From Nitrospira defluvii (GTDB lineage: Bacteria; Nitrospirota; Nitrospiria; Nitrospirales; Nitrospiraceae): a DNA stretch of 64,000 nt. The notes under the pieces were generated by a model. That model worked only from the letters and a program-made list of their open reading frames with translations. It did not search any database and was not told where the DNA came from. Positions 17,898 to 60,064 of this stretch are shown here, in pieces; position 1 is the stretch's first letter, and the number at the start of each line of letters is the position of its first letter. The stretch spans positions 1-64,000 of the forward strand of contig WYAX01000017.1 of the NCBI GenBank assembly GCA_011525625.1, written 5' to 3'. The translations under genes and the position numbers were made by a program.

Positions 17898-18241
17898 ATC
17901 CCGTGAATATAAAACCGGTATTCCGTTTTTATTGTAATTATTTTCCGTATTTTTATATGTTGTTTACCGGTTTTTGAATTTATTGGTAATCTCTCTACCC
18001 AGTAATCCCTCAGCAAATCTGGCTTGATACCAGATGTGGACGCCATTGTTATTCACTCGCGGCTCCGAGAGATGCTCGAAGGACATATGCCTGGCCTTGC
18101 ACTCACCGGTTACAACCTTCCATTGGCGCGGGACGCCGCGTCACGACCATGCTCTGGGGCTCACCGGATTCTCTACCGCGTCGCAAAGTTGGAGGGGATC
18201 GGTTTGCATCCCCGACAGACGGTGGATACGTGGCCGGGTCT
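17898..18241. other. Intergenic region between traC and cargo block 2
   Basis: The left part to about 18000 is AT-rich and should contain the promoter of the minus-strand 509-residue gene. Bases 18010-18241 return to the GC-rich style of the ICE. Short frames there have no recognisable product; this may be the eroded end of an ICE gene that normally follows traC. Confidence 0.4.
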
Positions 18242-20983
18242 CTAGGGAGTACGGCTCAGACCAATGCGGTGCGCGATGAAATAAGCAGCCTCGAGTTCAC
18301 TGCAGTCTCGCTCGTGCATGATGGCGGCGCGCTCTGCCTTTTCGTGCTTCTCGGTCATGGCGAGTGCCAGGGAAAGTGGTGGTGGGACGTTGCGGAATAG
18401 CGCTTCCAGATTGTCGGAGAGAACGACGCCCTCGACGTATTTACCGGGTTCTTTTCGCGCGGATAGCAGTAAGTTTCGCTGCACGTCGGTCAGGTCCTTG
18501 AAGCGCGCGATCTGTTCGACCTCTTCCTTGGGCATGACCAGGCAGAGCCACCACTCCATCATATTGAGCATTTTTTTGCTCGCATCGGGGAAGTCCTCCA
18601 GGTTCTGGGTGGCGATCCAGAACCAGGCACCGAGCTTGCGCCACATCTTGGTGATCTTGACCACGTAGCGGGCCAATAGGGGATTGGTGGTGATGATGTG
18701 ACCTTCGTCGGTCACTACCAGGGTAGGTCTGGCATCGTTCTGGTGGCGCTCCACCAGGTCGTTGATGTGGCTCATCATGGAGATGTAGGCGACGGTGAGC
18801 TGATCTTCGTAGCCCTCACGGGCCAGGATACCCATCTCCAGGACGGTGACATCGGCCTCGGGCCAGCGGGTGCCGGAACGGTTGAAGAAGTGACCGGCCA
18901 GACCGGAGCAGAACAGCGCCATGCCGTCTGCCATCTCGATGGCGCGGTTGCGACGGTGTTCGGGCAGGGATTGATCGTTGCCAATGGTCTGCAGGGCGGC
19001 GACCACGTCTTCGGTGATCACCTGTTCTCGGTGCGTTTCCTTGACGGTCTTGGCCGCCAGCAGTATGGCGTTGCGAATGACCAGGCGGTCGGCCCGGCTC
19101 AAGCGGGCGTCCTCGCGCTCGTCTCCGCCGGTGATCATGATCCGCGCGGCGATCTCCATCTCGCCCAGGATGTCCCGGCCGCTGCCCTCCTCGTCTCCTT
19201 CGTCGTCATCGTTGAGTTCATCCGGATCCTTGGCGAGTCGGGTTCGATGCTCTTTCTCCAATACGCGGAGGGCATCGGCAAAGGGCGGCAGGCTGACGTC
19301 CACGTTGGGGTTCAGGGTGACCTGATTGACCGACACGCCGTGCGCCTGAAATTGTTGTCCCAGGAGCGAGAATGAACCTCCAGCCTCGATGATGAAGATG
19401 CGCGGGCGGTGAACCGCCATCATCTGTTGCAGGAGATAGACCAGGAGTGCCGACTTGCCGGCCCCGGTGGGTCCGAGGATCAGCATGTGGGCGTTTTTCT
19501 TGCGGTCGGACCGGTGCAGCGGATCGAAGGCCAGGGGTTCGGCACCGCGGTTGAAGAACACCATTCCCGGGTGACCGGTACCTCGGGAGCGTCCGTAGAG
19601 GGGTAACAGGTTGGCGGTGTGACGCGAGAAGACCAGGCGGGAGCGGCGACTGGTCTTGTCCAGTGCTACGTCGTAGGCCATGGGCAGGTTGCGGAGATAC
19701 CCGTCCAATGCCAGGAGATCCGCCTCCTGCAGGATCGGTTGCAGGCCGTTGGGTAACAGCAGGGCGTTTAACTGGTTGACGTTGGTGCGTAGCGTTTTGG
19801 GATCGTCGCCGCGTACGTAGAAGGCGATGTTCAGCGGGTAGAGCTTGTTACCCTGGGCCATCTCGCGCTCCACCTGTTCCGCCTCTTCCCGGGTGAGTTC
19901 GGCCTCGGCGGTGTCGCCTACCGAGGCGCGTTTGATCTGGGCGATGTGGTTGCGGGTGTAATCCTGCGGCTTCACCGTCAGGGTGAGCGCCATGACGGTG
20001 TGCTCGGGCAGGCGGTCGAAGAGCGAGAAGACGTGATCGCCGGCCTGACGCTCGGCGGTCATATGGCCGATGTCCGGGGCCCGTCGGAGCCCCTGAACGG
20101 TCACCACGGTGTGCGGCAGGCCGTCGAACCACCAGGTGGCGGAGGTGTTGTCGGACCGGGGCATGGCGAGGGTGAGGCACTCGGCCAGGTCGTAGCCGAA
20201 GGGCAGCGCCGTGTCGCCCGGATAGGGGGCGATCTCCAGCAGCTGGTCGGGATCGCCGCCGGCGAGGGCCGGTCTGGGGTTGAACCACTTGAGGAGCCAC
20301 TCATAGAGATCCCGGCCGGTGCCGCGTTTGGCTTTTATGCCGGCCGAGGCCAGCGCGGCGATCCACTTGATCGCCACATCGTTCAGCGACTCCTCGACCT
20401 CGACGGCGGATGGGGGCCTGCCCTTGGGTTTCAAGCGGCGGTAGAGGGTGGCGCGGATGCGGCGCACCTGGCCGCGCCATCGGCTGCCGGTGACGGCGGT
20501 GTCCTCGAAGAGTCCTCCGGGACGGGTGATCTGATTGAGGTGCTGGGCAAAGGTCTCCCGGTAGTGACGGGTGAATGCGGTGTCTTGGGCACTGGGGTGG
20601 GCGTATTCGGCGACCTGGTGCTGGAAGGCTTTGAGGCTCGGCTCATCCTGCACGTAGACCTGCAGGACCCAGGGGGCGTCGTCCTCTTCGGGGATGGCGT
20701 CGGTGAGCGCGGTCTGGATGGCGTCACGCAGCTGCTGCATGAACTGCGGCGTCCGCGCCTCGGTCCCCGCTGGGGTGATTTCAAACAGCGCGCCCACGCT
20801 GATGCCGTCTTCGAGCAGGAAGGTGCGACTGTCGGGATGGTACTCGACCCAGGGGAGGAGATCGGTGAAAGATGGCGGGCGCTCGTAGAGGCGTTTGACC
20901 TCGGCTGTGGTGACCGGTGCGTCTTCCGAGTCAGGCACCTTCTGCTTAGGATGGTGTTGCGGGATCCCCGCCATGTTTATCAC
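18242..20983 (-). CDS. traC: Conjugative transfer ATPase TraC/VirB4, PFL_4706 family (TIGR03744)
   Basis: 913 residues, full length for the family. Walker A ILGPTGAGKSALLVYLL lies near 500 and Walker B TLVVTDEGHIITT near 770; an acidic insert (DDDEGDEEGSGRD) separates them. This is the cytoplasmic motor that powers pilus biogenesis and substrate transfer at the inner membrane. The GTG at 20983 overlaps the lipoprotein stop by one base; an ATG at 20974 (MAGIPQHHPK) is an alternative start. Downstream, where PFL_4709 would soon follow in PFGI-1, the operon is broken by cargo block 2. Confidence 0.95.
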   Translation of the reverse strand: MINMAGIPQHHPKQKVPDSEDAPVTTAEVKRLYERPPSFTDLLPWVEYHPDSRTFLLEDGISVGALFEITPAGTEARTPQFMQQLRDAIQTALTDAIPEEDDAPWVLQVYVQDEPSLKAFQHQVAEYAHPSAQDTAFTRHYRETFAQHLNQITRPGGLFEDTAVTGSRWRGQVRRIRATLYRRLKPKGRPPSAVEVEESLNDVAIKWIAALASAGIKAKRGTGRDLYEWLLKWFNPRPALAGGDPDQLLEIAPYPGDTALPFGYDLAECLTLAMPRSDNTSATWWFDGLPHTVVTVQGLRRAPDIGHMTAERQAGDHVFSLFDRLPEHTVMALTLTVKPQDYTRNHIAQIKRASVGDTAEAELTREEAEQVEREMAQGNKLYPLNIAFYVRGDDPKTLRTNVNQLNALLLPNGLQPILQEADLLALDGYLRNLPMAYDVALDKTSRRSRLVFSRHTANLLPLYGRSRGTGHPGMVFFNRGAEPLAFDPLHRSDRKKNAHMLILGPTGAGKSALLVYLLQQMMAVHRPRIFIIEAGGSFSLLGQQFQAHGVSVNQVTLNPNVDVSLPPFADALRVLEKEHRTRLAKDPDELNDDDEGDEEGSGRDILGEMEIAARIMITGGDEREDARLSRADRLVIRNAILLAAKTVKETHREQVITEDVVAALQTIGNDQSLPEHRRNRAIEMADGMALFCSGLAGHFFNRSGTRWPEADVTVLEMGILAREGYEDQLTVAYISMMSHINDLVERHQNDARPTLVVTDEGHIITTNPLLARYVVKITKMWRKLGAWFWIATQNLEDFPDASKKMLNMMEWWLCLVMPKEEVEQIARFKDLTDVQRNLLLSARKEPGKYVEGVVLSDNLEALFRNVPPPLSLALAMTEKHEKAERAAIMHERDCSELEAAYFIAHRIGLSRTP

Positions 20984-30624: not shown

Positions 30625-31359
30625 TCACAGGTACTTTTTGAAGGTACTTGCCGTCACCGTGACGGCAAGCGCGAACAGTGTGGCGAAGGGGATCACGATA
30701 AAGGTTGGGTGCAGACTGACGGGCAGCGCCAGGTAGACCACCCAGGTCAGTACCACCAGTGGGATGGCCGCTTTCTTAGCGTAGTGGTAGACGAAAGAAC
30801 TCTCACGCCCACCACCCCAGCGGCGAAGATCCCGTCGCACCAACCCGTCGACCAGGGCCACCAGACTGAACAGCAGAAACACCGGAGTCGCGAGCAGGAG
30901 TATCGCCAGGCGTACGGAGAACACCTGGGTGACCTGCATGGCCGCGATGACGAACTCGGCGAGGGGACGATAGATCCGGTGCAGGGTTGGCCGCAGGCCC
31001 TGTTCATCGGGGTGCGGTGGTGGCGAGACCCAGCGGATGAAACGGGTGAACTGCGTGACCTCGAAGAGGTAATGATAGGTACTATCGGCCACACGCTTGG
31101 CGAAGCGGGCGGGATCCGAGCTCACGATGCTGCGGCGAAAGTCGCTATCGAGGTAGCTGATCTCGTTGGCCAGCATGGTGCGGCTGTGTGCGATCCCCTC
31201 CTCCGGCCACCAGAGCACCATGCCCACCCATTCGATGACCAAGGAAAAGACCAGGGAGAAGAGCAGCCACTTGATCGCTTGCGCGGCGGCAGTCAGGCCG
31301 TTGGAGATGAGGCCCCGTCGGATGGCGGTGCGTCGGGGATCAGCGACCGCCTCAGCCAT
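30625..31359 (-). CDS. Integrating conjugative element membrane protein, TIGR03747 family
   Basis: 244 residues with helices at about 27-50 (AIKWLLFSLVFSLVIEWVGM), 150-175 (VFSVRLAILLLATPVFLLFSLVALV) and 205-240 (AAIPLVVLTWVVYLALPVSL, TFIVIPFATLFALAVTVTA). It is the conserved partner immediately downstream of TraD, overlapping it by eight bases, and is thought to help anchor the coupling protein. Function is not proven. Confidence 0.88.
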   Translation of the reverse strand: MAEAVADPRRTAIRRGLISNGLTAAAQAIKWLLFSLVFSLVIEWVGMVLWWPEEGIAHSRTMLANEISYLDSDFRRSIVSSDPARFAKRVADSTYHYLFEVTQFTRFIRWVSPPPHPDEQGLRPTLHRIYRPLAEFVIAAMQVTQVFSVRLAILLLATPVFLLFSLVALVDGLVRRDLRRWGGGRESSFVYHYAKKAAIPLVVLTWVVYLALPVSLHPTFIVIPFATLFALAVTVTASTFKKYL

Positions 31360-33466
31360 GGGTCTCTTGTTCGGATGCGCTTGGGACTTCGTTCACCGCC
31401 TGCCACCACGGCTCCTGGACGCGGTACCACTGGTCGTTGGTGATGTAGGTGCGTTCCATCTCGTTGGCGATCTCGGCCAACCCGACCGGTAGGGTGAGAT
31501 CACCGCGGATGTCGGGGAGCGGCATGCGGAGCTTCCAGAGCTGCCCGCCCTCCAGGAGCGCAAAAGCCTGGCCCTTGGGCAGGGCGACGAGATCCGCCGG
31601 GGTCAGCATGGGGACCTCGGAGACGCTGATGCGATCCTCGTTGCGGGAGCGGAAGTCGATGCCGGTGGTGGGATCGGAGGAGTCGTCCACCCCCGAGACG
31701 CTCATCAGGGTGAATACCTCCACCTTGGGGAGCTGGTCGGTCAGCATCTCGGCGGTAGCGAGCTCCTTGACCCGCAGCATGATGAGCGTATTGAAGTTGC
31801 CAGCCACCTGGCCCGCCTTGGCACGGTTGCCGATACGCGCCTCCACGTCGGACCAGGTTTGGGTGTAGGCCGTCACCTGAAAGCCCGCGCCGCCGGCCTT
31901 GTTCAGCAGCGGCACGAACTCGTCGCCGATCAGCTCGTTGAACTCGTCAGCGTGCAGGGAGATGGTGGGCAAAGAGCTCTGGGTAGTGGCGTTGAGGGGA
32001 TCGGTGTCCACGCCGTGCTTGTAGATATGCCCCGCCACCGAGACCAGGTCGGCGAACATGGAGTTGCCGACGGCGCTGGCGACCGTGGTATCGGTCAGTG
32101 CATCGAGACCGACGTAGACGATGCCCATGTTGCGGATGACCTCCATCCATTCGAAGATGGGGCGACCATCGGCTTCGTCCAGGTAGTCGGGGGAGATGAG
32201 TTCGGCGATCTTGCCGGTGGTGAGCTTTTCCATCAGCGGGCCGACGGAGCTCACGATCTTGTCGAAGTAGGTCTTGTCGTACTTGAACGCAGACACAAGG
32301 CCGTCGAGGACCGGGTCGTAGAGATCCTGCGCCTGCAGGTGGCGCATGAGGGCAATCGCTTCGACGTTGCGGCCGCGCAGCGAGGTCGGTAGGTTACGCT
32401 CCTTGATGGTGGTGGCGAGCTCGGCCACCTGCTCCTGCCACGCTTCTGCCCCGTGTTGGTTGAGGTGCGCGCGGGCGTACTCCATAAACAGCGGCTCGAT
32501 GTCGTTGATGTAACGGCGCACCTGCTGGTAGTCCGGACGACGACCCAAGGCGACCAGGGCGCGTGCGATGATGTTGACGAAGCGCCAGGCGAACTCCTTG
32601 AATGCAGCGGAGTTACCCTCGCTGGGAAGCTGATTTGCGATGCGGGTGGCCACCTCGGTGATGCGCGAGAAGTTGCCGATGGCGTTGTAACGCGCCGAGA
32701 TCTCAGGGTGGCCGAGATGGAACAGGTAAAAGTCCCGGGCGCGGCCCGCACGCTTGGCCTCGGCATAGACCCGCCGCAGCAGATCGGCATCGCCCTTGGG
32801 GTCGAAGACAATCACCACGTCACCGCGGCGGATATCTTGGGTGATGAGGAGTTCGGCCAGACGCGTCTTGCCGACCCGCGTGGTACCCAACACCAGGGTG
32901 TGACCGACCCGCTCGCCAATGTCCATCCAGACGGCTTGCTCGTAGGGCTCCACGGCGTGCAGCGCCAGTTTACCGCCCACGGGAGGGAGCGGCGCGAGGG
33001 GATTCCACCAACAGCGGGCGCGCAGGAATCTGGCCAGCAGGCTTGCGAGCGGTACCGCTTCCCAGGCCACCTCCTTGCGCCGCGCCCATTGGTAGAGCGC
33101 TCCCGGCTGGACGTAGCGCTGCACCTCGGGGCGAAGGGTGTCACGCAGGCGCTGGGTGTGTTGCTGGGTCCAGCGAAAGCCTTTGCCGAGAAAGAGCTTG
33201 TGCCGGCTGAGCGGGATTCGGTCGGCGCGCAGACAATAGGTGGGGAGCCGGCGCATGTTGCGTTGATAGCGCAGCACCCTCCCCGCCTGTCGAGCGCGGA
33301 CGATGCCGATCGCGGCCAACACCGCGGCGGCGCTGTAGGCAACTCCCGGCGGCATCATGAGCGCCCAGGGGGCGAGGACCGCAATGGCCGCCGTGGCGAA
33401 CGCCGCCACCGTCGACCACAGCTCGACCGGGGGGCGCAGCAAGGCCTCGATGGGATGCGCGCTCAC
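31352..33466 (-). CDS. traD: Conjugative coupling protein TraD, SXT/TOL type (TIGR03743)
   Basis: 704 residues from the GTG at 33466, which overlaps the stop of the PFL_4695 gene (GTGA). Two N-terminal membrane helices (WSTVAAFATAAIAVLAPWAL and VAYSAAAVLAAIGIV), then a P-loop ATPase with Walker A LVLGTTRVGKTRLAELL and Walker B region SLPTISLHADEFNEL. This inner-membrane hexamer passes the relaxase-DNA complex to the secretion channel. Full length. Confidence 0.93.
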   Translation of the reverse strand: MSAHPIEALLRPPVELWSTVAAFATAAIAVLAPWALMMPPGVAYSAAAVLAAIGIVRARQAGRVLRYQRNMRRLPTYCLRADRIPLSRHKLFLGKGFRWTQQHTQRLRDTLRPEVQRYVQPGALYQWARRKEVAWEAVPLASLLARFLRARCWWNPLAPLPPVGGKLALHAVEPYEQAVWMDIGERVGHTLVLGTTRVGKTRLAELLITQDIRRGDVVIVFDPKGDADLLRRVYAEAKRAGRARDFYLFHLGHPEISARYNAIGNFSRITEVATRIANQLPSEGNSAAFKEFAWRFVNIIARALVALGRRPDYQQVRRYINDIEPLFMEYARAHLNQHGAEAWQEQVAELATTIKERNLPTSLRGRNVEAIALMRHLQAQDLYDPVLDGLVSAFKYDKTYFDKIVSSVGPLMEKLTTGKIAELISPDYLDEADGRPIFEWMEVIRNMGIVYVGLDALTDTTVASAVGNSMFADLVSVAGHIYKHGVDTDPLNATTQSSLPTISLHADEFNELIGDEFVPLLNKAGGAGFQVTAYTQTWSDVEARIGNRAKAGQVAGNFNTLIMLRVKELATAEMLTDQLPKVEVFTLMSVSGVDDSSDPTTGIDFRSRNEDRISVSEVPMLTPADLVALPKGQAFALLEGGQLWKLRMPLPDIRGDLTLPVGLAEIANEMERTYITNDQWYRVQEPWWQAVNEVPSASEQETHG

Positions 33467-33987
33467 TGCTCGATGCCTTGGGCGGTCACCAGGACCGGGT
33501 AGTGGGTGAGCCCCAGGGCGGCCGCGATATCCGTCGCGGAAGCCGGCATGATGGAAAGTCCTTTCCCGAGATTTACGATGGCCTGCAGATCCTCGCGGGT
33601 CTCGGCCTGTACCAGCATACCCACGGCACCGATCGCTTTGAGGCGATCGCGATGTTGCATCAGCCATTGCCGGGAAAGGGTGTCGGATCCGATCAGAAAG
33701 AACGGGCGGGCAAACGGTCGTGCGTGTTTCCGCGCGGGAACTGTTCCGGGACTTATGCCCGGGGAGCGAATCGGTAATAGTGCTTTAACATCGGCCGCAC
33801 CGAGCCGGGGTCCATGCTGGGGTTTCAGATCCGGTGGCGGCGGGTCGCCTTCGAAGACCTCGAGAAACGGTGCCAGCGGTCGCGTGTCGCCGCTGTCGTA
33901 GATCACGGTGACGGCCGATCCGGCAACGAGCGGCACCAGCGTCAGCCCGATCAGTAGCCATCCTTTCACACAACGATTTATTACCAT
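33463..33987 (-). CDS. Integrating conjugative element protein, PFL_4695 family (TIGR03765)
   Basis: 174 residues from the ATG at 33987, where an N-terminal hydrophobic segment begins (GWLLIGLTLVPLVAGSAVTV). The conserved end (SDTLSRQWLMQHRDRLKAIGAVG, then THYPVLVTAQGIEQ) is diagnostic. A periplasmic or membrane-anchored protein of unknown function, always next to traD in type G elements. Confidence 0.88.
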   Translation of the reverse strand: MVINRCVKGWLLIGLTLVPLVAGSAVTVIYDSGDTRPLAPFLEVFEGDPPPPDLKPQHGPRLGAADVKALLPIRSPGISPGTVPARKHARPFARPFFLIGSDTLSRQWLMQHRDRLKAIGAVGMLVQAETREDLQAIVNLGKGLSIMPASATDIAAALGLTHYPVLVTAQGIEQ

Positions 33988-38559: not shown

Positions 38560-39426
38560 TCACGTGCCGCAATAAATGGCTACTATCTGCGGGCGTTCGT
38601 GCCCAAGTTCCCGACTGATTATCAAGCGAGCCTGGCAATCGATGGCCCCTTGCTCAGGCGTTAGCGTCTTTACGGCGGGTCCGCCCGCGGCCGGCGCAGG
38701 CCATCCCGTCAGTTCCTGGTAGCGCTGCTGGGCATAGGCGTGACGCAGACCGTGCAGTTTCGAGAGTCCGGCGTTGGCGGTGTGACGCTCGTAGATGCGA
38801 AGTTGCTGGCGATAGTTCCGAGCGCTTGGGATGAGCGAACCGTTATCCGTCAAAGCTCGCGCGCGATCAAGTACTGTTCGCTGAGCTTCGGTCCGCACCG
38901 GGATATCCCTCGCCTTCCCTCCCTTGGTCCAGCTGGCCTTCAGTATGAGGTGGTCACCGCGATCGGCAAAGCGCGGCTGAAACTTGATCGCCTCCTCGCG
39001 CCGCAGGCCAAAGGTCTGCTGGAGCTCGAGGCTCATGCGTACGTGCGGATCACGGATGGTGTCCAGATCTGACTCGGTCACCGTCCGTGCCTTTGATACA
39101 TTGGTCACGAATTGCCGGTCCGGGATCCCGTAGTGAGCGTTCGAACGGGCCACGACGTTCTGGCGGTTGACCTTGTGCGCCCACCAGCGCAGGACGCTCA
39201 ACCGATTCTTGATGGCGCCGATCGAGCGATTCTCGCTCTGCCAGTGCCTCACCAGGGCTTCGATGTGTTTCGGTTTCAAGGACCGGGCAGTCATTTTACG
39301 GTAGCCCAGGGCATGGAGTTGATTGGCGATCAGGGTCAACAGCCGTTCCCGATCGGCCTGGGTTCGATAACTGCCGTCGCGATTGTGCCGGCAGAGTTGT
39401 TTGAGTTGGTAGTTCAGCTCTCTCAC
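38560..39426 (-). CDS. Tyrosine recombinase, ICE internal integrase-domain protein
   Basis: 288 residues from a GTG at 39426. The N-terminal SAM-like domain is followed by a catalytic domain with FGLRREEAIKF (first Arg), KGGKARDIPV, LHGLRHAYAQQRY (His-Leu-Arg-His) and ELGHERPQIVAIYCG (Tyr near the C terminus). It matches the integrase-domain proteins found inside PFGI-1-type ICEs, in addition to the att-site integrase. Role unknown; it may resolve dimers. A long leader (39427-39783) and an overlap of a conserved palindrome-like site (39422-39432) suggest tight control. Confidence 0.85.
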   Translation of the reverse strand: MRELNYQLKQLCRHNRDGSYRTQADRERLLTLIANQLHALGYRKMTARSLKPKHIEALVRHWQSENRSIGAIKNRLSVLRWWAHKVNRQNVVARSNAHYGIPDRQFVTNVSKARTVTESDLDTIRDPHVRMSLELQQTFGLRREEAIKFQPRFADRGDHLILKASWTKGGKARDIPVRTEAQRTVLDRARALTDNGSLIPSARNYRQQLRIYERHTANAGLSKLHGLRHAYAQQRYQELTGWPAPAAGGPAVKTLTPEQGAIDCQARLIISRELGHERPQIVAIYCGT

Positions 39427-39432
39427 AGTGTG
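39422..39432. promoter_or_regulatory. Third, degenerate copy of the CTCACA-TGTG site
   Basis: CTCACAGTGTG overlaps the GTG start of the integrase. It is identical to the centre of the palindrome at 40324-40342 and differs in one base from the one at 46301-46331. Confidence 0.4.
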
Positions 39433-39783
39433 CTCGCTTTCCGGTAAGTGTTTCTAGCCATCCGGGGGCCGTAGCCTTCCGGAGCCGCTGACGCGGAACG
39501 GCTATGGGACACCACTCCCATCGACCTGAAAGTGCCTGGTCGCAGGCAACGCGGGTTCTCCCCGTGGGGATTGGTCCGCGTCGACCAACTTACCCATCGC
39601 TGGGCGTCGTACGATCGTGGTGAGACATCACCTCCTTTCAAATGAGCGGATACGCTGATCCGCGGGTGGTGGAAGAAGAGCTGCGACGGTAAGACCTTGC
39701 GTCCTCGTCACGGCTCATTGCATGGAGAAAGGCTTTCGCCTGTGTGGAAGGAGCGGACCTAACGGTCCGCTGAGGGGGGGAAG
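39427..39783 (-). promoter_or_regulatory. Long structured leader upstream of the internal integrase
   Basis: No convincing protein-coding frame. Contains a perfect 8-bp hairpin AGCGGACC-TAAC-GGTCCGCT (39752-39771), a GGAGG run (39629-39636 on the opposite strand), and further GC-rich repeats. The gene set of the neighbourhood (integrase, RadC, replication protein) resembles that near the STAXI RNA motif, but a covariance search is needed; no match is claimed. Confidence 0.4.
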
Positions 39784-39867
39784 ATGAACCCACGGCGAAT
39801 CGCCGCTGCGCCTTTCGGGGTTCGGGGACGCTCAGTTGCCACTTTGCCCGCAGTGGCCGCGGATGAA
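39784..39867. repeat. Conserved repeated element, copy A
   Basis: Begins ATGAACCC and ends GGATGAA, with the hairpin GCCACT...AGTGGC (39838-39843 and 39852-39857). Copy B is at 43816-43895 in the same orientation. Both have a purine-rich run shortly before the ATG. Confidence 0.6.
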
Positions 39868-40310
39868 TCTGTCGTGAGGGCGGATTTTAGGAACCCGTCA
39901 CGCACCGGTCACGGCGAAATCCATCCGCCAAGCCGCGCGGTTACCGGGATCGCCGCCCTCGTCACTACCCCGCTGCGCTCGCCAGTGACGAGGGCGCCTT
40001 CGGATCGAGCCAACCCTGCGCCAGGCTATGGCCTGTCACACGGCGGGCAACACCCGCTTGCGGCTGGCCTTTGGTGCTGGCGACCTGCCCACTGGGGCCC
40101 ACAGGCGCCGCGTTCCGCGGCCCCGCCCTTGGCGCGCGAGTTTGGGGCTCGCGCTGCCGTGGCGGGCAGGACCTGTGGACTCAGTGGACAGCTTGGTGCT
40201 TTCTTAGGCGATGCCTTCGGCGTTTTGGGACCCCGCAGATCTCCCGCGCTCTGCACCCACCGCATCCGGATTCACCGTATCCGGCTATTCCGGATGCGGT
40301 GGCGCTAACC
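39784..40310. other. Structured GC-rich stretch, probably non-coding
   Basis: An open frame of 174 residues exists (39784-40308, plus strand), but its product is Arg/Ala/Gly/Pro-rich without a recognisable fold. Three strong inverted repeats are seen: 39954-39966 with 39984-39996 (13 bp), 40134-40140 with 40148-40154 (7 bp) and 40258-40270 with 40289-40301 (13 bp). The first 84 bases repeat a conserved element also present at 43816-43895. A structured RNA, a transfer origin or a relic are possible. Confidence 0.45.
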
Positions 40311-40323
40311 GAGGCCTGGCTGG

Positions 40324-40386: not shown

Positions 40387-40498
40387 TACCGTACGTGATT
40401 ATTTATGAGATAAAACCCAATGAAGTTCATTTTTTTTCACGTACGGTACGTTTCTCTTGAATATACCGAGTTGCGGTGATATTTTTTACCGTACGGTA
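40387..40498 (+). promoter_or_regulatory. Three TACCGTACGGTA-like operators before the second hipBA pair
   Basis: TACCGTACGT (40387-40396), its inverse ACGTACGGTA (40439-40448) and the perfect palindrome TACCGTACGGTA (40487-40498) lie in an AT-rich gap just before the antitoxin start. This arrangement is typical of cooperative autorepression by a HipB-type protein. Confidence 0.7.
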
Positions 40499-40515
40499 TC
40501 TTTTTGAGGTCACTC

Positions 40516-43764: not shown

Positions 43765-43815
43765 TGGGAAGGGAAACGGGTCCCGCTCCCGTGAAGAGGG
43801 GCCGACGGCAATGGG

Positions 43816-43895
43816 ATGAACCCTCGCTGCTGTGCACCGGTTGCACGGCCCTTCGGTGCCTCGATTGCCACTGAACCGCAGTGGCCACGGATGAA
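43816..43895. repeat. Conserved repeated element, copy B
   Basis: Begins ATGAACCC and ends GGATGAA, with the hairpin GCCACTG...CAGTGGC (43867-43873 and 43879-43885). Second copy of the element at 39784-39867. It lies between parM and the STY4534-type gene. Confidence 0.6.
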
Positions 43896-43914
43896 ACCGA
43901 TTAGGTGTTTGTAC

Positions 43915-58660: not shown

Positions 58661-58939
58661 ATGAAAACACTTGATCTTGAACAGGCCGCCGATTTTCTGA
58701 AAGTCAGTCCGAGCACGGCTCAGGAGATGGCTGCTTCAGGCAAGCTTCCGGGCGCCAAGATCGGACGAGCTTGGGTGTTTTTGGTGGAAGATCTGGTCGA
58801 GTACCTGAGGGAACAGGTATGCATTCAACGGGAAGTTCGCCGTGAGCAAACCCAGTCAACAGCAATTGCGGTCCTTTTGCCTAAACGCTCCAGGCGCCGC
58901 GAACTACCCGAACTACCAGAGCTGCCCAGCCAAGTCTGA
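58661..58939 (+). CDS. Excisionase-like helix-turn-helix protein
   Basis: 92 residues from the ATG at 58661. The winged helix-turn-helix pattern MKTLDLEQAADFLKVSPSTA, then GKLPGAKIGRAWVFLVEDLVEYL, is that of the MerR/excisionase HTH_17 type. Proteins like this often direct integrases towards excision. The C terminus is Arg-rich with an ELPELPELP repeat and overlaps the integrase tail by 27 bases on the opposite strand. Confidence 0.75.
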   Translation: MKTLDLEQAADFLKVSPSTAQEMAASGKLPGAKIGRAWVFLVEDLVEYLREQVCIQREVRREQTQSTAIAVLLPKRSRRRELPELPELPSQV

Positions 58940-60064
58940 TCCCCGTAGGTTGGCATAGCGCCGCAGCATTTCCAGGTTCTTGTGACCCGTGATCCTTGAT
59001 ATCTGCAAATCAGACAGTGCGGTGCGCTCGTAGAACCGGCTCGTTGCCTCGTGACGCAGATCGTGAAATCTCAGATCTGGACATCCCGCATGATCGAAGA
59101 CACGGCTCCAACGTCTGGACAAGATACTGGTCGTAGCCGCCAATTCCTTGCGGTCCACTGCACCATTCCACCAAGGGAATACTAGATCACCGGGGCCACG
59201 ATCCCGTTTTGGCACCGTCTTGAGGTAGCGTTCAATAACGTCGATTGCCACTGTGGACAGTGGCACTTGCCGCTTATCACCGTTTTTGGTTTTTTCCAGG
59301 AAGATGGTCTTCCTGCTGATATTGATTTGACCTCGGTTAAGAGTAAAGATCTCTCGCATCCGCATCGCTGTCTCCAGCGCCAAATCGAACATCAAGGTCA
59401 TCGCGAGCCGATGATCCAACAACAGAGGGCGTTGCTTACCGTCTGGTTTGTATCCTCCCTTTAACACTTTCCGAATGCGCTCTTCTTCCTCGCCCTCCAG
59501 CCGCCGATCCCGTTCCACATCTTGTTTAGGTTCGACTAGTTTCTTGTCCCTGCCGGTATAGTTGGCGTACCCCTTGGGGAGCATCCGCAGCGGATTACTT
59601 GCCATGCGGTCCTTGCGATTGGCCCAGTCGAAGCATCGCGCCAGTGCACCCACATGATGCCTGATGGTGCTAGGTGCTAGATTCTTGATGAGCTTCATGT
59701 CAGAAACCCATTTCTCAGCCCAATTGTAATCGACTTGCTTTGCAGTAATAGGGCCGATCCGAGAATAGATAACCCACAGAAGGTGCTCGTCATCCGGTTT
59801 GATTGCAACCGTATCAATGTAGTCCTTAATGATCTCCCGAACTGGCTCCGACTTCTGCTCTACCTCAAGGAATTCCCGCGGGACAATTCCCTGATCTAGC
59901 AACGTCTCTAGGTGATCACAATAGGTCCTTCCCTCTTCCTCAGTATCGAAACTCAGATAGATCGGTCTTGGCAGCAGCCTGCTGCGCTTGATCACAAACT
60001 CAAAGCGGTTACCTCGCGGTCTACAAGTGGCCATCTGATCCCCCATACTCGCGTACACAAACAT
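58913..60064 (-). CDS. int: Tyrosine integrase of the element at tRNA-Cys
   Basis: 383 residues; starts at 60046 or 60034 are alternatives. The N-terminal and core-binding parts are followed by the catalytic domain: LALETAMRMREIF (Arg), KNGDKRQVPLS (Lys), RFHDLRHEATSRF (His-x-x-Arg-His) and ITGHKNLEMLRRYANL (His, Tyr). The gene begins about 150 bases from the tRNA-Cys, the usual place of an ICE or island integrase, so it should recombine at the tRNA or its 3' flank. Confidence 0.92.
   Translation of the reverse strand: MFVYASMGDQMATCRPRGNRFEFVIKRSRLLPRPIYLSFDTEEEGRTYCDHLETLLDQGIVPREFLEVEQKSEPVREIIKDYIDTVAIKPDDEHLLWVIYSRIGPITAKQVDYNWAEKWVSDMKLIKNLAPSTIRHHVGALARCFDWANRKDRMASNPLRMLPKGYANYTGRDKKLVEPKQDVERDRRLEGEEEERIRKVLKGGYKPDGKQRPLLLDHRLAMTLMFDLALETAMRMREIFTLNRGQINISRKTIFLEKTKNGDKRQVPLSTVAIDVIERYLKTVPKRDRGPGDLVFPWWNGAVDRKELAATTSILSRRWSRVFDHAGCPDLRFHDLRHEATSRFYERTALSDLQISRITGHKNLEMLRRYANLRGSDLAGQLW

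Follow-up and report, generated by a model that had tools for sequence, protein, structure and literature searches.

What function resides in the GC-rich DNA at 39784-40310, which lies between the leftward gene of a tyrosine recombinase (INT2) and a hipBA pair, and how does it serve the mobile element around it? The window, i.e. the whole stretch of DNA that was analysed, comprises bases 1-64000 (64,000 nucleotides) of the 65,181-base contig C5 in the 35-contig genome of Nitrospira defluvii. Profile searches revealed in it a TIGR037xx-type ICE that encodes TraD, TraC and DUF3577 (Table 1). The contig opens with part of a gene for a phospholipase-D-like anti-phage protein (48-2240; NF042964, 929 bits, cut-off 1100), which is likely defence cargo.

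The original prediction, made from the letters alone, described a long GC-rich stretch with three strong hairpins beside a repeated element, without a plausible protein, which could be a structured RNA, the transfer origin or a recombination site. The composition was borne out (GC 0.686 over 39750-40249), and all three inverted repeats are present within 349 bases: the first has perfect 13-bp arms (39954-39966/39984-39996), the second 7-bp arms (GCGCGAG/CTCGCGC, inside 40122-40166) and the third 13-bp arms (CCACCGCATCCGG/CCGGATGCGGTGG, inside 40257-40302). The adjoining element is real as well, since a second copy of 39880-39779 is found at 43902-43794, likewise on the minus strand. That the stretch is a protein-coding gene is close to inconceivable. 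A plus-strand open frame of 174 codons (39784-40308) does exist, but every one of the 23 aligned relatives interrupts it with 1-6 stops and with frameshifts, and it has no Pfam family. A tblastn search of plasmids with this frame gave no match, and its piecewise tblastn matches to relatives track DNA homology, with frames shifted. Thus no conserved protein homologue appeared, while the repeats inside the unit described below did prove to be conserved in relatives.

Table 1. Features of the window discussed in the text.
Feature	Position	Strand	Remark
TraC ATPase of the ICE T4SS	18242..20983	-	TIGR03744
TraD coupling protein of the ICE	31352..33667	-	TIGR03754
INT2, tyrosine recombinase, MpsA homologue, proposed atypical relaxase	38560..39426	-	PF12834 + PF12835
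Conserved non-coding block, ~770 nt, candidate INT2-sense structured RNA	39427..40193	-	Sharp upstream edge at ~40193
3' RNA domain, R1 match (the window is a training row)	39443..39589	-	Position comparable to the SGI1 sgm-sRNA core beside mpsA
Repeated element, copy 1 (GGCCACTGCGG..AGTGGC hairpin), within the RNA block	39779..39880	-	
Proposed oriT hairpin: 13-bp perfect stem, 17-nt loop, core GTCACT..AGTGAC	39954..39996	-	Conservation
Hairpin, both-side changes in 18 cells (mean of shuffles 5.3)	40009..40048	-	Covariation
5' RNA domain, closed by the 20-bp helix 40193-40171 x 40106-40083	40083..40193	-	Holds the 40122-40166 hairpin
Third hairpin of the original prediction	40257..40302		Outside the conserved block, not in the unit
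Repeated element, copy 2, upstream of the DUF3577 gene	43794..43902	-	

Comparison with relatives showed that the predicted extent, 39784-40310, is off-centre. By blastn and by a profile over relatives, the conserved unit runs on the minus strand from 40193 to 39427 and stops where the INT2 gene starts, so that the third hairpin is left outside. When 84 upstream stretches (87 minus three that were too short) were searched by blastn, 16 single alignments of at least 700 nt were obtained, and 16 of 16 end at 40191-40195. A profile built from 24 regions matches 78 of the 87 upstream regions, some in part only; L095 and L007, which are the same contig, were counted once among the 87. The nine misses are three loci with at most 207 nt of upstream sequence (L037, L057 and L093), the plasmid loci L010-L014 and the viral contig L096. 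A scan for promoters picked out a single sigma-70-like site, which falls within the block (39912-39884); the vicinity of 40193 gave none. Several TACCGTACG repeats at 40387-40501, in the gap separating the block from hipB, are perhaps hipBA operators.

No DNA relative of the block was found in plasmids, in E. coli or in any of the 99 other relatives of the host that were searched. The best 80 of 558 INT2 relatives are 64-83% identical and are labelled mostly as Gammaproteobacteria, plus one Binatia bin; four of these 80 are bins labelled Klebsiella pneumoniae, which we judged to be mislabelled. This distribution suggests that the block and INT2 were acquired from far outside the host's group. 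A TraD of the same ICE type accompanies 33 of 80 genome loci and the plasmid locus L010, many loci being cut by contig ends. At some loci with full 8-kb flanks (e.g. L031, L043 and L072), tblastn detected INT2 and no other window proteins; therefore, the module extends beyond this ICE.

The proposal of a structured RNA was supported by covariation. An alignment of the 3' domain (A2), consisting of the window and 40 of about 80 loci picked for length and diversity, contains 28 pairs with 92.1% paired cells, as compared to 80.4% in shuffled alignments; 19 pairs show changes on both sides, and the covariation score is 0.395 vs. 0.170. None of 500 shuffles reached the observed value in any of five measures, and sliding the partner collapses the signal. 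In 21 non-redundant full-length rows, many further helices exceed the shuffles in compensatory cells; some, for example 39928-39922 x 39885-39879 and 39605-39602 x 39595-39592, do not. Counts on the two strands lean to the sense strand (131 G-U vs. 67 A-C, and 21 vs. 2) because the structure or the filter admits G-U, and the sense consensus is slightly more stable (-84.0 vs. -79.4). These analyses, all of them computational, support a large structured RNA that lies outside Rfam 15. At gathering score, Rfam 15 gives only two tRNAs in the whole window, and a known RNA family was rejected on this basis; matches below threshold, such as mir-595 at 40240-40322, were dismissed because a long palindrome was judged to produce them. 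In our literature search, no title describes this RNA on ICEs. On the RNA strand, 39627-39638 reads AAAGGAGGUGAU, which we take to be the complement of the 16S rRNA 3' end; it is kept in many relatives, and no conserved reading frame was noticed behind it.

A covariance model of the 3' domain (R1; 31 rows, the window included) found the domain again upstream of INT2 genes. It gave 46 matches in 17 of 35 genomes, six of these matches being training rows, and in 40 of the 46 an INT2 gene or fragment follows at a distance of 18-55 nt. There was no R1 match in 11 genomes with traC and without INT2, nor in 7 genomes with a more diverged or partial INT2. Over 37 further sources, 11 matches were found at E 0.001 or better: six from a class-wide draw of genomes, L113-L115, and the plasmids L010 (E 3e-4) and L011 (E 4e-4). 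The plasmid L012 scored E 0.52, L013 and L014 gave nothing at E up to 1, and nothing was found in eight stretches of two MOBH ICEs.

Six R1 matches have no INT2 match. By tblastn, two of them (L162 and L163) retain only the start of INT2 and L161 has no significant remnant; L163 also has no hairpin of the conserved type described below by the strict criterion. The other three (L164-L166, genome G527), whose surroundings are partly shared, have no INT2, yet they retain the GGCCACTGCGG element, AACACTTACC and the hairpin, which stands at -213 relative to the domain; the AAAGGAGGUGAU segment appears as AAGGAGGTGAA in these orphan cassettes. From their sequences, L164-L166 resemble natural cassettes reduced to oriT and RNA, which could undergo mobilisation in trans, possibly as satellites using the relaxase of an ICE.

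These orphan copies bear on the possibility of a long cis-regulatory leader, in which case the RNA would belong to the INT2 mRNA, control expression of the recombinase and have no role in transfer. The RNA does abut INT2 in the same direction, and 40 of the 46 R1 matches lie shortly before INT2 or a fragment, as described; however, three copies without INT2 retain the conserved modules, and ~770 nt is long for a leader. Moreover, the sgm-sRNA of SGI1, encoded between oriT and mpsA, is reported to be essential for transfer and to act in trans, and mpsAB expression does not substitute for it (PMC9299015). For these reasons, we regard the leader as an unlikely explanation.

The repeated element deserves a separate comment. 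An exact 16-base search of viral contigs returned 23 stretches, of which 8 fit the element's profile, over about 30 nt. By eye, this ~30-nt version lies directly before an ATG in viral contigs such as L121, L122, L124, L127, L128, L130 and L132, and an Rfam search of two contigs, L121 and L119, gave no match. The GGCCACTGCGG..AGTGGC element may be a small independent leader RNA. Its use as a general ICE oriT, which we also considered, is unsupported because neither of the two MOBH ICEs that we examined has it in the stretches analysed (L102-L109).

Within the block, the first hairpin is conserved at the sequence level. By a pattern designed after several loci had been seen ([7 bp]GTC[ACT][CT]T ... 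A[AG]NGAC[7 bp]), 70 of 77 upstream regions, the window among them, contain it, as compared to 0 occurrences in 1,966,386 control bases (the remaining sequence of these loci, on both strands). The loci bearing it include the plasmids pSIO1 (L013), pHS-Rec (L014) and pRR3-57 (L010); the seven without it are L048, L051, L061, L072, L096, L011 and L012. Among 21 further loci the hairpin was present in 12, lying 1.37-1.40 kb upstream in L149, L150, L157 and L158 (L150 and L158 denote a single genomic place), at -893 in L145 and at -178 in L146. The nine without it are L140, L147, L148, L151, L154, L155, L156, L159 and L160, and L151 has no upstream sequence to scan. In some of these loci a diverged INT2 was seen as two tandem adjacent matches, one of them shorter (G321:C12/C13 for L157 and L149, G462:C1 for L150 and L158, G309:C44 for L147). 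One of the plasmids, pSIO1 (NC_006860.1), is a 4.9-kb Vibrio plasmid typed as non-mobilizable; it has an INT2 relative and the hairpin, and also carries a gene annotated as T4SS conjugative DNA transfer family protein, so that it may be mobilizable.

Where one arm of the hairpin varies, the other arm matches the change. The spacer between the arms ranges from 11 to 29 nt, the commonest length being 17, and this varying loop favours a folded strand over a duplex site of fixed spacing. In lox and dif sites the spacing between the arms is fixed; a fixed spacer of this type was not observed here. For this reason the third option of the original prediction, a recombination site, is disfavoured.

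In a single comparison INT2, the enzyme encoded next to the block, is 36% identical to MpsA of SGI1 over 175 aa (E 7e-24), with the catalytic residues aligned, and R141, K167, H224, R227, H228 and Y284, i.e. the R, K, H-x-x-R-H and Y set, are invariant in 20 sequences. The protein has 287 residues and ends three residues past the catalytic tyrosine, as compared to two in MpsA. An N-terminal SAM-like domain (PF12834) occupies residues 1-86. TcpM, MobK and MpsA are reported to be without a core-binding domain (PMC8152469), a trait that INT2 does not share. Searching the PDB by sequence gave no match; the predicted model (pLDDT 90.3, pTM 0.65) found the integron integrase 2a3v as its best PDB match by Foldseek (E 3.3e-6, TM 0.46), followed by XerA, Tn1549, lambda and Cre recombinases. 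The target of the integron integrase, attC, is likewise hairpin-like with a variable loop; given the weak structural similarity, this is a resemblance only.

Such a fold and such a match, together with a near-symmetric inverted repeat as the site, would also suit an accessory recombinase (for resolution, inversion or integration) acting at the hairpin. This is rather improbable in our view, and somewhat more so than the leader: the spacers differ from the constant ones of lox and dif, the window has another tyrosine recombinase (58913-60064) adjoining two tRNA genes, and the homologue MpsA is essential for SGI1 transfer (PMC6414798). INT2 is thus better read as a candidate tyrosine-recombinase-type relaxase, a kind to which MobK of pIGRK and TcpM of pCW3 belong. 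The oriT of MobK lies in the intergenic region before its gene (PMC8152469), an account in which no mention of an RNA was found.

The comparison with SGI1 was extended to DNA with the 3.1-kb record OR851053.1 (L140). It contains a 321-codon ORF with R162, H247, R250, H251 and Y319, the residues published for MpsA (PMC6414798), followed by a 99-codon ORF like MpsB; the ORF list of the window started at 100 aa, so that a protein of the size of MpsB could be missed. The 125-bp oriT was placed on this record via two 6-bp repeats at the published position 17987-18017 (PMC6414798), and its GC content is 60.8%, the published value being 60% (PMC6414798). Inside it lies a 12-bp perfect stem, CCCCGTCTCTGT/ACAGAGACGGGG, of the same type as the window hairpin; having 4 of 7 outward pairs, this SGI1 stem falls short of the strict criterion for the hairpin. 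By our own assignment, this stem is part of the 19-bp imperfect IR3, and deletion of the IR3 right arm is reported to have cost 40-fold in SGI1 transfer (PMC6414798); were it IR2 instead, the published change there had no effect. The same source describes IR1 as essential (PMC6414798), and the comparison shows no counterpart of IR1 in the window.

The two systems have in common a homologous tyrosine-recombinase-type relaxase, a GC-rich region of inverted repeats upstream, an RNA region between oriT and the gene with the same reading direction, and a CACTTACC motif upstream of the gene. They differ in that the window module sits on an ICE with a T4SS whereas SGI1 is an IncC-dependent island, in the SAM-like domain fused to INT2, and in the window RNA of ~770 nt with its own fold. 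On L140, with filters off, the best R1 match was at E 0.1; R1 is blind to the SGI1 RNA, and homology with sgm-sRNA is therefore not shown. SGI1-like islands of Vibrio and others, which are mobilised by IncC plasmids, carry mpsA with an upstream oriT, and three stem-loops are conserved over 39 oriT loci (PMC8409611). The SGI1 module was itself described as seemingly unique (PMC9299015). With a related stem in a mapped oriT beside the MpsA homologue of INT2, and with the MOBH relaxase missing as detailed below, the transfer origin named in the original prediction is supported as the likely reading.

The search for a classical relaxase in the own genome, which covered PF07514 (TraI_2, MOBH) and PF03432, detected neither. 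MOBH ICEs of the PFGI-1/ICEclc kind share with the window the TIGR037xx T4SS genes, TraD and DUF3577, but their TraI_2 was not found here. We therefore asked how INT2 and TraI_2 are distributed around traC in 13 genomes (12 reached via INT2 loci, plus the own) and 22 from the class-wide draw of 369, in which 24 genomes were above the TIGR03744 cut-off, two being already in the first set; only two traC candidates per genome were scored in that draw. Among 42 traC loci, 23 have INT2 within 65 kb, 4 have TraI_2 at >100 bits in that range, 0 have both and 15 have neither, several of the latter being on short contigs. The exclusivity gives a Fisher p of 0.035 over the 42 loci, with genomes partly chosen by INT2 and of non-independent descent, and the limit of 100 bits was set after the scores had been seen. 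Weak TraI_2 matches (18-79 bits) were left uncounted in G279, G331, G372, G309, G439, G511, G462 and G321 and, as a second one, in G503; that of G309 (18.5 bits) is about 9 kb from traC. Three genomes (G542, G626 and G559) do have a strong TraI_2, either distant from traC or on a different contig.

It could be argued that the ICE is a classical one whose MOBH relaxase exists and is missing from the assembly, INT2 and the RNA doing something else. The far end of the ICE did not come to light: window base 1 is where the contig starts, and the genome is split into 35 contigs; otherwise the element belongs to the TIGR037xx family, two examined members of which carry TraI_2. Against this, all 23 traC loci linked to INT2 lack a TraI_2 above 100 bits within 65 kb, and G269 and G278 each hold at least one ICE of each kind, INT2 and TraI_2. 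We consider this explanation very improbable.

It is likely, on the computational evidence, that the region is the oriT together with a structured transfer RNA of an MpsA-like relaxase, which on this ICE would replace the classical one. What was observed is the conservation of the block, covariation of the RNA type, the conserved hairpin, the homology with MpsA, the stem in the SGI1 oriT and the lack of a MOBH relaxase among the matches; from this we infer transcription of the RNA, nicking at this site by INT2 and a role of the RNA in transfer. In the proposed mechanism, the ~770-nt structured RNA would overlap the ICE origin of transfer and be read toward INT2, and INT2, as a relaxase of the tyrosine recombinase type, would recognise the 39954-39996 hairpin and nick near it. 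Assembly of the relaxosome, or its delivery to the T4SS via TraD, would depend on the RNA and chiefly on its 3' domain, a role modelled on the need for sgm-sRNA in SGI1 transfer.

A broader idea, which we put forward tentatively and hold to be possible rather than probable, is that conjugation is started here by an RNA-dependent relaxase, with the RNA serving a structural or guiding function within the relaxosome while INT2 acts on the folded hairpin. It would then be a general RNA-assisted system that replaces classical relaxases across an ICE lineage, with SGI1 as one of its branches; if true, this arrangement would be common to plasmids and to satellites without a relaxase of their own. If ICEs that have their own T4SS carry a related module, the transfer of ICEs without a known relaxase would be explained, and mobility typing based on relaxases could miss such ICEs. 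An alignable, covarying RNA family also offers a means to probe the role of the RNA in SGI1. In a group of bacterial mobile elements, transfer may thus begin with an RNA-assisted enzyme and not with a classical one.
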